Below, piece by piece: positions 19,865-24,005 of a DNA stretch of 64,000 bases (its first letter is position 1; every line of letters starts with the position of its first letter). Source of the DNA: Microcoleus sp. FACHB-1515 (GTDB lineage: Bacteria; Cyanobacteriota; Cyanobacteriia; Elainellales; Elainellaceae); contig NZ_JACJPO010000012.1 in assembly GCF_014696105.1 (NCBI RefSeq), forward strand, positions 1-64,000, read 5' to 3'. A program made the translations under genes and the position numbers. The notes under the pieces were generated by a model. The model was not told where the DNA came from and did no database searches. It was given only the letters and a program-made list of their open reading frames with translations.

Positions 19865-20869
19865 TCATTCTGCCTTCCTCACTTCTGCCTGCTGCCAATC
19901 CTCGATCGCCACCCAAGCGCCATCCTGCTGCAAAGAAGCAGTTAGTGCTGCGAGAATTTGCACCAGTTCCGCGCCGACCCAGCCGGAAGAAGTTGGTGAA
20001 GGCTGGTTGTGCTGAATGCAGGCGAGAAAGTGATCGCACACCTGCCAGAGCGGTTCGGTTTGAGCAAACGACAGCGCGTCCAGTGAAGCCCTCACTTCCC
20101 CCTCACTCGGCAACCAGCGCAACACAGCCGAATCCAGTTCGTCAAAAATCAGCGTGCCGCGATCGCCCACGATGCCCATTCGTCGCTGCTTATCCGGATT
20201 GCTCCAGCACAAATGCAGTGTCGCCCCAAAGCCGCTCGGATATTCCAGCTTCACCCAGGCAAGATCGGCGCGATCGGATCGCCAGCTTTGCGCTTGTGCT
20301 TGGACGCGAATCGGACGCGATCGCAGCCAGAAATTAAAAATGCTCAAATCGTGAATCGCCAAATCCCACAGCACATCGACATCTTGTCGAATCGGAGCGG
20401 GATGGGTGCGCGTCGCATAGCCGTAGCGCAAGCGGCCAAGCTGCGGAATTTGCTGTTGTCCCTGCTGAATCGCGGGATGAAACAGGTAGGTGTGATCGAC
20501 CACAAGCTGCCGCTGTTGGCGATCGCTCAGTTCACACAGCCGCCTCGCCGCTTCAGGATGTAAGGTCAGCGGTTTTTCAGCTAGTACGTGCAATTTTTGC
20601 GTCAGAGCCGCTTCAATCAGCGCTTCATGCAGGCTGGCAGGCGTGACGATCGCCACCGCTTCCAGATTCGGCGTGTGCAGTACCTGCAGCCAATCGATCG
20701 ATCGCTGTATGCTGGCAGCAAGCTGGAAATCGTCCGCGACGGCTGTGAGGCGATCGGCGTTTGGGTCAGCGATCGCCACGACTTGCGCGTGTGGATGCGC
20801 CAAAAAATTCCGCAGCAGATGCACGCCCCAGCGACCTACGCCCAAAACGGCCAGCTTCACAGGCGGCAT
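19865..20869 (-). CDS. Gfo/Idh/MocA family oxidoreductase
   Basis: 334 residues. The Rossmann start KLAVLGVGRWGVHLLRNF and IADPNADRLTAVADDF are followed by the family's signature LAEKPLTLHPEAARRL near 123-138 (EKP, with catalytic Lys). Such enzymes reduce or oxidise sugars or cyclitols with NAD(P). Substrate is unknown. It lies five bases downstream of rnc on the same strand, so it may be transcribed from the rnpB-rnc region. Confidence 0.88.
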   Translation of the reverse strand: MPPVKLAVLGVGRWGVHLLRNFLAHPHAQVVAIADPNADRLTAVADDFQLAASIQRSIDWLQVLHTPNLEAVAIVTPASLHEALIEAALTQKLHVLAEKPLTLHPEAARRLCELSDRQQRQLVVDHTYLFHPAIQQGQQQIPQLGRLRYGYATRTHPAPIRQDVDVLWDLAIHDLSIFNFWLRSRPIRVQAQAQSWRSDRADLAWVKLEYPSGFGATLHLCWSNPDKQRRMGIVGDRGTLIFDELDSAVLRWLPSEGEVRASLDALSFAQTEPLWQVCDHFLACIQHNQPSPTSSGWVGAELVQILAALTASLQQDGAWVAIEDWQQAEVRKAE

Positions 20870-20874
20870 CCACG

Positions 20875-21585
20875 CTATCCTGCTTCAGCGAGCAGTTTCA
20901 GGTAGGCCGCTTGCGCGGCGGCTTGTTCGGCGGCTTTCTTGGATGCGCCGCTGCCACTGCCTAACGGTCGCCCCTGAAGCCAAACTTCTGCCCGAAAGCG
21001 TTCTGCGTCGTTGTGAATTTTGTTGATTTCTTCCAGCCGATATTCCGGTGCGGCTTTGAAGTGTGCGCCCGTCCATTCTTGCAGCGCTCCTTTGTAGTTT
21101 TGACGGGCAGGATCGTTGCGAACCACTTCGGCGATCGGCGCAAACTGTCCATCGAGCCAAGGATGAACCAGCGACAAATCCTGCGTACTCAAGAACAACG
21201 CCCCCAGCACCGCTTCAAACGCCGCTGCCGATCGTGTCTCTTGTCCGGTTGGGTCAGCGATCGCGCTATTCGACATCAGCAAATAGCGATCGAGACCGTA
21301 GGAATCCGCAATTTTTGCCAGGACGCGATCGCTGACTAAGATCGCGCGAATTGCCGATAGCTCTCCGGCTTTTGCCTCCGGATAGGTTTTGAACAAGAAC
21401 TGAGCAGCCGCCAGCTTCACAACCGCATCCCCGACAAATTCCAGTTCTTCGTAGTTGGCTTCGCTCGAAAAGGTTGCGTGCGTAAGGGCGCGATCGAGCA
21501 AGCTCCAATTGATTCGAGCCGTGTCAGACAGTCCCAGCTTTTGCACAAACTGCCCAAGCTGCTTTTGACGACGAAAATCTTGCAT
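20875..21585 (-). CDS. rnc: Ribonuclease III
   Basis: 236 residues using the ATG at 21585. An ORF extends upstream to 21693, but that part is inside the RNase P RNA, so the later start is right; TTG codons at 21597 and 21603 are alternatives. Seen: the RNase III signature LEFVGDAVVKLAAAQF near residue 58, with the acidic motif ELEFVGDAV, and a C-terminal dsRNA-binding domain ending LGSGSGASKKAAEQAAAQAA. It cuts double-stranded RNA in rRNA and mRNA maturation. The gene begins about 30 bases after rnpB on the same strand. Confidence 0.94.
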   Translation of the reverse strand: MQDFRRQKQLGQFVQKLGLSDTARINWSLLDRALTHATFSSEANYEELEFVGDAVVKLAAAQFLFKTYPEAKAGELSAIRAILVSDRVLAKIADSYGLDRYLLMSNSAIADPTGQETRSAAAFEAVLGALFLSTQDLSLVHPWLDGQFAPIAEVVRNDPARQNYKGALQEWTGAHFKAAPEYRLEEINKIHNDAERFRAEVWLQGRPLGSGSGASKKAAEQAAAQAAYLKLLAEAG

Positions 21586-21615
21586 CAATTCATTCAACGA
21601 CAAATCATGAATAGT

Positions 21616-21985
21616 GGAAAGAGGCGGACATAAGCCGGGTTCTGTTCTGACATTGAGTTGCCCCATGCCAGGGCAGTTATCTATCTCGAACATCTGTTAC
21701 CAAATGTCTCTAGCGGATGCACAGGAATTGCTTCCTGCTCGGAACGGGAAAACGACCAACCCTTGTTCCTTCGACCTTACTCCCCACCGGGGTTTACCGA
21801 GCCAGCACCTCTCGATGCTGCTGGTGCGCTCTTACCGCACCTTTGCACCCTTACCCGAAGGCGGTATGTTTCTGTGGCACTATCCTCACGATCGCTCGCA
21901 CTGGACGTTATCCAGCAGGTGTGGTCGTTCGGGAGACCGGACTTTCCTCAGGCTTGCGCCCGCAACTGCCTCGCCTCCTCTTTCC
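21616..21985 (-). ncRNA. rnpB: RNase P RNA
   Basis: Bacterial type-A RNase P RNA. On the minus strand the conserved 5' core CTGAGGAAAGTCCGGTCTCC is followed later by the 3' core ACAGAACCCGGCTTATG. The ends pair: GGAAAGAGG (21977-21985) with CCTCTTTCC (21616-21624) forms P1. The length of about 370 bases fits. It cleaves the 5' leader of tRNA precursors together with RnpA, which is not in the window. rnc starts about 30 bases downstream. Confidence 0.93.
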
Positions 21986-22073
21986 ATGATCCAGTCTAGT
22001 CAACTTCGGCAGATTAGATGCGTTTTCAAGCTGCTGAGGAGTTGAGATGTGAGCCTACGTTTCCAGTTCTTTC

Positions 22074-24005
22074 CTAATTCTTTGCATGGATCGGCAGCTC
22101 AATACAAAATTCTGTGCCTTTTCCCCACTGAGAATTGCAGACGATCGATCCGCCATGTCTTTCAATAATTTGATAGCTAATTGCAAGGCCAAGTCCCGTG
22201 CCTTTGCCAACGGGTTTGGTGGTGAAAAACGGATCGAAAAGATGCGATCGAATGTCCTCCGTCATTCCCAACCCGTTATCGGCAATGCGAATTTGGATCG
22301 AGGCTGCTGACGCGATCGAGGTTTGAATCGTGATTTGGTTGGGCTGCGTTGCAAGCTGCTGACCTGCCGTAATCAATTCGCAGGTGGTACGTTCTTCGAG
22401 GGCATCGATCGCATTGCTAATCAAATTCATAAATACTTGATTAAGCTGTCCGGCAAAGCAGTCAATCAGCGGCAATTTGCCATAGTTTTTGATAATTTGA
22501 ATGCCTGCATCGGTGCCGTTGGGTTTGAGGCGATGCTGAAGAATCATCAGCGTATTGTCGATGCCTTGGTGAATGTCAGCGAGCTTTTTCTCGGTTTGGT
22601 CGGCTCGCGAAAAGTTTTGCAGCGATAAAACAATTTGACGAATGCGTTCCGATCCGACTTTCATCGAGCCGAGAATTTTGGGAAAGTCTTCTTTGATAAA
22701 GTCCAGATCAACCCTGTCGAGAACGGCCTGCGTGCGATCGCTCGGCTGCGGACATTGTTCTTGATAGGCCGCGATCACCGCAAACAGATCTTGTGCGTAG
22801 CTGGTGGCGTGGCTGAGGTTGCCGTAGATGAAGCTGACGGGATTATTAATTTCGTGTGCAACTCCGGCCACAAGCTGACCGAGCGATGACATTTTCTCAG
22901 TTTGCACAAGCTGACTTTGAGCCTGCTGGAGGTCTTGGAGTGCCTGCGCGAGTTCGTTGGCGGTTTGCTCAAGCTGGCGAGCTTGCGCTCTGGCAGTGGC
23001 GGCGGCGACGCAGCTTTGCTCATACAGTTCCGCTTGCTGAATGGCGATCGCTGCTTGGTCGGCCAACTGCTGAAGCAAGTCGATTTCAAAGTCTTCCCAG
23101 TGGCGCGGAGCGCGGCACTCGTGAGCGATCAGCAATCCCCACACCTGACCGAGCATCCGAATCGGCACGACCAGATTCGCCTTGACCTGCATCGCTCGCA
23201 GCAGTCCTTTGTGGCAGTCGGCAATGTCAGATTCTTCGAGGTTGTCGATCGCACGGACGCGCCCTTCGAGATATTGCTGGCCGCTTTCTTCGGGAAAGCA
23301 GTTGTCCTGGTAGGTGTTGCCCAAGACGCGCTGCCAAGGTTCCAAGACAGACTCGACGACCACTTCGCCCACCCACTCTTGATCAAAGCGGTACATGACA
23401 ACGCGATCGGTATCAAACAGCGATCGCACCTCGTCCACAATCGTTTGCAGAACAGTTTGCGGATTGAGCGAACTGCGAATTTCGTCGGTGATTTGCTTGA
23501 GAACTCTGGCAAGCACCAGCGATCGACGCAGTTCGGCGGTTTGCTCTTGCACCTGCTGCTCCAAGCTGGCGTTTAAGGCTTGTATCTGCTTATAGAATTG
23601 CTGCTGCTTCATCGAAAAATCAAACTCGTCCATCACGGGATCGGCATCCAGGTGGTTCCAAGGTTGTTGCATCTGTTGTCGCTGGCGGAGGGCGGCGCGC
23701 GTGTTGCGATCGCGGAGTTTTCCTAAATCAAGCTGCTGCTGCTCATCAAGCAAATCTTCTCGCCGCATAAATTCGACGATGATTTCTGACAAGAGCGACT
23801 CGACCTGGATCATTTCGCCGCCGAGCCACTGATGAATTTCAGTTTCTTCGGGTGCAAATTCGATGCATTCGAGTGTGTAGTGGCGGAACTCGCGGATTTT
23901 CCTCAGTAAATCTACAAGTTGCGCCGGGCATTCACAGGCAATAACGTTCGCAGTTTCGCAAATAATTTGAAGCTGCGCGTCTGAAAAATCGGAGTTGAGT
24001 GACAT
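22074..24005 (-). CDS. GAF-domain sensor histidine kinase
   Basis: 643 residues. N-terminal 170 residues are helical and acidic, with a coiled coil ([20 protein letters not shown]). A phytochrome-type GAF domain follows (residues about 190-350), with [14 protein letters not shown] and HEC-x-x-PRHW, lacking an obvious bilin-binding Cys next to the His. Then a HisKA with [16 protein letters not shown] (phosphoacceptor His near 402) and HATPase boxes [19 protein letters not shown] and [12 protein letters not shown]. It ends 88 bases before rnpB. A cytosolic sensor whose response regulator is not adjacent. Confidence 0.9.

Follow-up and report, generated by a model that had tools for sequence, protein, structure and literature searches.

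Close neighbourhood of the RNase P RNA gene and the RNase III gene in cyanobacteria and its possible meaning for their expression

Introduction

In the genome of Microcoleus sp. FACHB-1515 the gene of RNase III (rnc) follows the gene of RNase P RNA (rnpB) at a very short distance. This raises the question whether both are made from one transcript, which would carry a ribozyme as well as the mRNA of another ribonuclease, or whether they are neighbours that are expressed separately. The analysed stretch of DNA comprises 64,000 nucleotides and is referred to as the window. An initial annotation, made from the sequence alone, had suggested a joint transcript and had added that RNase III could process its own precursor.

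The question has a practical side as expression studies in cyanobacteria use rnpB as a reference RNA, for example as the standard in real-time PCR (PMC2897979, text excerpts). If it is true that rnpB heads the RNase III mRNA, changes to its 3′ flank would alter RNase III, too. In the open-access literature searched (titles, beginnings of abstracts and passages, among the matches listed, with most subscription papers and supplementary tables outside this scope) rnpB and rnc are not described as neighbours or as co-transcribed, and the passages considered from PMC10989914, PMC4264200, PMC2897979, PMC1242208, PMC7191817 and PMC5371410 contain no description of the pairing. Specialists may well be aware of the pair.

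Results

The locus in the window

All features considered lie on the minus strand and are given here in the direction of transcription:

21993..21998, minus strand: −10 box TAGACT of the putative rnpB promoter, read from the sequence and matching a recurrent pattern
21616..21981, minus strand: rnpB, bacterial class A RNase P RNA (Rfam RF00010, 230.9 bits)
21586..21693, minus strand: in-frame upstream extension of the rnc reading frame, from the list of open reading frames, judged not to be protein
21586..21615, minus strand: rnpB-rnc junction of 30 nt, in which no terminator, recognisable promoter or notable structure was found
20875..21585, minus strand: rnc, RNase III of 236 amino acids with ATG start (TIGR02191; start inferred from a congener)
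19865..20869, minus strand: Gfo/Idh/MocA-type oxidoreductase (PF01408, 5.6e-23)

The RF00010 match over rnpB is full length (model positions 1-367 of 367; 230.9 bits, gathering score 100). No other Rfam match in the window reaches gathering level, and the whole 5.8-Mb genome has no second RF00010 match. Judged by this model the gene is that of a bacterial class A RNase P RNA, which is predicted to be catalytic. Upstream of it a histidine kinase gene, on the minus strand as well, ends at 22074. The rnc product was scanned as an open reading frame of 272 amino acids and reached 188 bits with TIGR02191 (cut-off 166.25); it contains the Pfam domains Ribonuclease_3 (PF00636, 6.9e-21) and dsrm (PF00035, 2.4e-12) and, in the alignment, the stretch NYEELEFVGDA, which we take to be the signature motif of RNase III. 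A second RNase III-like gene with 33% identity is located on contig C32 of the same genome. The arrangement given by the initial annotation, with rnc directly downstream of rnpB on the same strand, an rnpB end at 21616 and a first rnc codon at 21585, is thus confirmed; the strand, which had not been named, is minus for both genes, and the gap of about 30 bases is 30 nt.

The 272-residue reading frame begins at an ATG at 21693, inside rnpB, and ends at 20875. In the congener Leptolyngbyaceae cyanobacterium SM1_3_5 (L152, with L032 as its start) close similarity is found in the 3′ part of rnpB and then again from the ATG at 21585 onwards, while the stretch between the two genes measures 83 nt compared to 30 nt in the window and is mostly unrelated sequence. 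Among 18 tightly spaced pairs the rnc frame is shut before rnpB in eight and open into rnpB in ten. As the open frame of the extension is kept neither in the congener nor across these 18 pairs, we regard it as a product of chance and reject real coding, in agreement with the initial annotation. The junction is also a spot where automatic annotation could stretch rnc into the ribozyme gene. A motif resembling a Shine-Dalgarno sequence precedes the rnc start in nine of 69 genomes with linked genes.

On the other side of rnc, the Gfo/Idh/MocA gene starts 5 nt past the rnc stop codon. In 58 of the best 80 named loci, rnc is followed on its own strand by a relative of this oxidoreductase, which begins between −7 and +620 nt from the projected rnc end. 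The gene is a possible third member of the unit.

Occurrence of the gene pair

RF00010 is present in 239 of the 244 genomes of the phylum, and a relative of rnc (E ≤ 1e-25) in 225 of them. Linkage was counted by joining both results for the 117 of these 244 genomes that belong to the class of the window. In at least 59 of the 117, rnc follows rnpB on the same strand at a distance of no more than 350 nt. Among the matches listed, the gap is 150 nt or less in 44 genomes, 150-350 nt in 15 and 350-6000 nt in 14; the genes are far apart on the same strand in 12, on opposite strands in 11 and on different contigs in 14. For the remaining seven the row is missing: rnpB of G195, G230 and G258 is not among the matches listed, three genomes have no rnc at E ≤ 1e-25, and one has neither gene. 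Once further relatives of the window are included, 18 of 36 families (codes f1-f36) contain one or more genomes in which rnc lies no more than 350 nt from rnpB (17 families from the junction set, f10 from coordinates), and a gap of 20-61 nt is kept in 18 genomes of ten families, in small (f2) and large genomes alike.

The named loci, the best 80 among the matches listed and fetched with an rnc alignment, may share species with the class genomes. In 40 of them rnpB lies within 350 nt upstream of rnc, including loci of Planktothrix, Moorena, Nostoc, Fischerella, Microcoleus, Gloeocapsopsis and one Pleurocapsales strain; rnpB is found at a distance of 451-3579 nt in 17 and nowhere within the fetched stretch in 15, and eight end at a contig edge. 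Twelve rnpB loci from the phylum's other classes showed no rnc match in their fetched flanks (up to 1500 nt), a thin control which lacks f38 with most of the non-class genomes and includes two loci at contig ends as well as G036 and G044, in which no rnc was found at all.

The gene order seen in the window thus recurs in other cyanobacteria; the adjacency is more than chance and not a quirk of one genome. The best rnpB tree, which has few supported branches, implies 29 changes of linkage. Since the genes are 350-6000 nt apart in 14 of 117 genomes, and far apart, on opposite strands or on other contigs in 37 of 117, the link is dispensable.

Inserted genes and spacers

Several relatives carry additional sequence between rnpB and rnc. 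At L144:314-2619 (minus strand, G124, family f17) a gene pair resembles AriA (3.1e-28) and AriB (2.7e-42) of the PARIS anti-phage system, with the domains AAA_15 and DUF4435. Similar reading frames stand between rnpB and rnc in L148 (G264), and in G058 (L140) only shorter ones are left, as judged by eye. At L147:197-2149 (minus strand, G250) the insert encodes a protein of 650 amino acids with Schlafen AlbA_2 and RecG-C-terminal-like domains, and a shorter reading frame in G085 (L141) was likened by eye to its C-terminal part. The 3′ side of rnpB may be an insertion hot spot in f17. In several families a protein of about 205-245 amino acids is encoded between the two genes: L139:177-797 (minus strand; this copy matched nothing in Pfam or PADLOC), L149 and L150 (similar as judged by eye), and the named loci L154, L159, L218 and L224, where it was matched by tblastn 179-701 nt before rnc. 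Short tandem repeats such as CAGTTATCAGTTAT and ACTAATAACTAATG were noticed by eye in several spacers of 100-300 nt (L109, L110, L112, L113 and f17 loci such as L114 and L116), and the rnpB-rnc spacing therefore varies strongly among near relatives.

Promoter of rnpB and search for a promoter before rnc

The pattern TA[ACG]A[CA]T occurs between −26 and −6 (21 nt) of rnpB in 43 of 70 genomes, compared to a shuffled mean of 3.5, and is absent from the other 27 (the listing of positions leaves out G224). The commonest boxes are TAAACT, TAGACT and TACACT, starting mostly 14-19 nt ahead of the model start; a clear −35 box was not seen upstream of these genes. From the position of the −10 box, transcription should begin a few bases from the 5′ end of RNase P RNA, and for the window a start at about 21985-21982 (GGAA) is predicted. 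In all 12 of the f2 loci examined (L092-L103) a tRNA-Arg gene (anticodon CCT) stands just upstream of rnpB on the opposite strand, and the usual −10 box was mostly not seen in f2 loci.

None of the 18 tight pairs shows this pattern in the 92 nt ahead of rnc (shuffled mean 3.1, sd 1.5). The pattern had been picked after viewing the regions upstream of rnpB, so this is a consistency check and not a blind test, and the count would miss an unlike promoter inside rnpB. By an automated rule for start codons, rnc begins 15-30 nt past the rnpB end in 21 of 69 linked genomes, and the nearest starts, at 15, 17, 19 and 21 nt, leave no room for a promoter in the gap. A consensus scan of 20700-22500 found nothing on the minus strand around the junction; it gave a single terminator-like site, at 22249-22232 on the upstream side of rnpB, and a single plus-strand promoter-like site. 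Since the rnpB −10 region escaped it as well, the scan lacks the sensitivity to carry weight and was replaced by the pattern count.

Terminators behind rnpB

A terminator was defined as a hairpin of at least six pairs and at most −8 kcal/mol with at least six T in eight positions, within 80 nt of rnpB, and shuffled sequences served as controls. Such hairpins occur in none of 17 tight pairs (gap ≤60 in this count; shuffled expectation 0.2) and in two of 52 looser linked pairs (1.38), compared to seven of 15 interrupted pairs (0.3) and eight of 34 unlinked genomes (0.65). For the named loci the counts are two of 40 linked (expected 0.87) versus nine of 17 interrupted (0.77). The terminator count and the tree test cover part of the unlinked genomes and leave out G001, G027, G011, G012, G014, G028 and G192 (contig ends, partial RNA or not added). 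A looser rule gave 0/17 tight, 10/52 looser, 10/15 interrupted and 14/34 unlinked; it used longer stretches, longest in the unlinked genomes, and no shuffled control, and was redone with a single stretch of 80 nt and shuffles.

Fisher tests, which ignore relatedness and thereby overstate the contrast, give p = 2.8e-5 (linked 2/69, not linked 15/49), p = 6.9e-5 within f17 (1/12 versus 13/15) and p = 1.1e-4 for the named loci (2/40 versus 9/17). Of the 15 terminator-bearing interrupted or unlinked genomes 13 belong to f17, where two recurrent terminator types end about 35-45 nt past rnpB. Both types also occur in named loci of Nostoc, Anabaena and Trichormus, and f17 is therefore taken as Nostocaceae. 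Outside f17, terminators are rare everywhere (linked 1/57, interrupted 0/6, unlinked 2/28), so that their absence is weak evidence there. Independent contrasts on the rnpB tree amount to three pairs on supported branches only, and this underpowered sign test is not significant. The observations fit the idea that terminators after rnpB belong to genomes in which rnc has become independent of rnpB. One genome, G093, has a strong terminator after rnpB, yet rnc follows 236 nt downstream.

Discussion

Adjacency, recurrence, the −10 box of rnpB, the lack of a detectable terminator and the lack of a matching −10 box before rnc in tight pairs can be read directly from the sequences. We propose, with a probability of roughly 0.6, that rnpB and rnc form one unit which would be driven by the rnpB promoter and possibly extend into the Gfo/Idh/MocA gene, rnc being expressed by read-through and the 3′ end of RNase P RNA arising by processing. 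Transcription would begin at the 5′ end of RNase P RNA or close to it. As no intrinsic terminator is found at the 3′ end of rnpB, some transcripts would continue into rnc; this read-through is what we infer. The 3′ end of RNase P RNA might then be formed by an endonuclease, by trimming or by both, within the U-rich flank beside helix P1, and an enzyme of the RNase E type is our guess. The rnc mRNA would be left with a leader of about 30 nt or less in the window. The fraction of T in the first six nucleotides after rnpB is 0.53 in linked, 0.52 in unlinked and 0.38 in interrupted genomes; a T-rich flank common to linked and unlinked genomes suggests a feature of the 3′ side of RNase P RNA and not of the pair. 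A terminator or a strong promoter in the 30-nt gap had been named initially as evidence against a single transcript, and neither was found. With the order recurring in many families, the single transcript is still the simplest reading of the junction, co-transcription itself being deduced.

A promoter of rnc inside rnpB or elsewhere upstream, unlike that of rnpB, would make the adjacency incidental to the expression of rnc. Promoters inside genes are common in bacteria, the spacers of looser pairs could hold one, and where rnpB is followed by a terminator or rnc lies elsewhere in the genome, rnc must be expressed in another way. The 92 nt before rnc are free of an rnpB-type −10 box in every tight pair, however, and this sequence is probably constrained by the structure of RNase P RNA, so that we regard a separate promoter as unlikely. 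It appears still less probable that the order is kept by descent only, with no functional coupling of RNase P RNA and RNase III expression: the pair is often broken, as the 29 linkage changes on the weakly supported tree indicate, but the gaps of 20-61 nt persist in 18 genomes from ten families with small and large genomes.

The remaining explanation takes up the idea of the initial annotation that RNase III cuts the rnpB-rnc precursor itself; the cut would free the 3′ end of RNase P RNA and set the rnc mRNA level by feedback. This explanation found no support here. It can draw on the double helix P1 directly at the junction. Compared to dinucleotide shuffles, however, the first 100 nt after rnpB have a mean z of +0.27 in the 18 tight pairs, with one of 18 below −2, and the junction stretch of the window has a z of −0.16; a structured junction element was rejected on these values. 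The junction being no more structured than shuffles, nothing points to a leader hairpin like that of E. coli rnc; by eye the junctions of different genomes do not align. In 70 RNAs, P1 has between 6 and 16 contiguous pairs with a median of 11 (ten in the window), and RNase III sites usually require a longer helix than these roughly 10-11 contiguous pairs. A possible long-range extension of P1 in the window (ATCATG upstream, CATGAT downstream) was considered as such a site and rejected: its 3′ part is absent from the congener, whose contig stops short of the 5′ part. Cutting of its own precursor by RNase III is accordingly possible but very improbable.

Within the proposed read-through unit a further coupling can be imagined, which we put forward tentatively and hold to be rather doubtful. 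Each 3′ maturation cut of a read-through RNase P RNA would yield one ribozyme and one rnc mRNA. With an rnc start 15-30 nt from the rnpB end, a bound ribosome would touch the 3′ strand of P1. Speculatively, ribozyme folding and rnc translation on one molecule may therefore be mutually exclusive as long as the RNA is uncut; ribosomes initiating on rnc would compete with the closing of P1, and RNase III synthesis would report the rate at which RNase P RNA is made and folded. If true, a recurrent cyanobacterial circuit would couple two RNA-processing enzymes, RNase P and RNase III.

Comparison with known systems

Operons joining a stable RNA to an mRNA are known from E. coli as tRNA-tufB and metY-nusA. 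The cyanobacterial pair would resemble them in that the leading part of the transcript is released as a stable non-coding RNA while the rest encodes a protein. Its two genes share a strand, and neither a terminator nor a matching −10 box was found between them, in a search that would miss other promoter types. It would differ in its stable RNA, which would be RNase P RNA, and in its protein, a second ribonuclease. Among cyanobacteria, the RNase III genes slr0346/slr1646, alr0280/all4107 and A0061/A2542 have been described (PMC10989914); the passages considered on these genes do not mention rnpB as a neighbour. They belong to the same enzyme family, and the genome of the window has a second copy, too.

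The rnc gene of E. coli has a 5′ leader that is cleaved by RNase III itself in an autoregulatory manner (PMC5371410, text excerpts). In the cyanobacterial pair a complete ribozyme gene takes the place of the leader hairpin upstream of rnc, and the junction showed no structure of that kind. The proposed read-through unit would nevertheless share with E. coli that the fate of the rnc mRNA is tied to RNA cutting upstream of its start codon.
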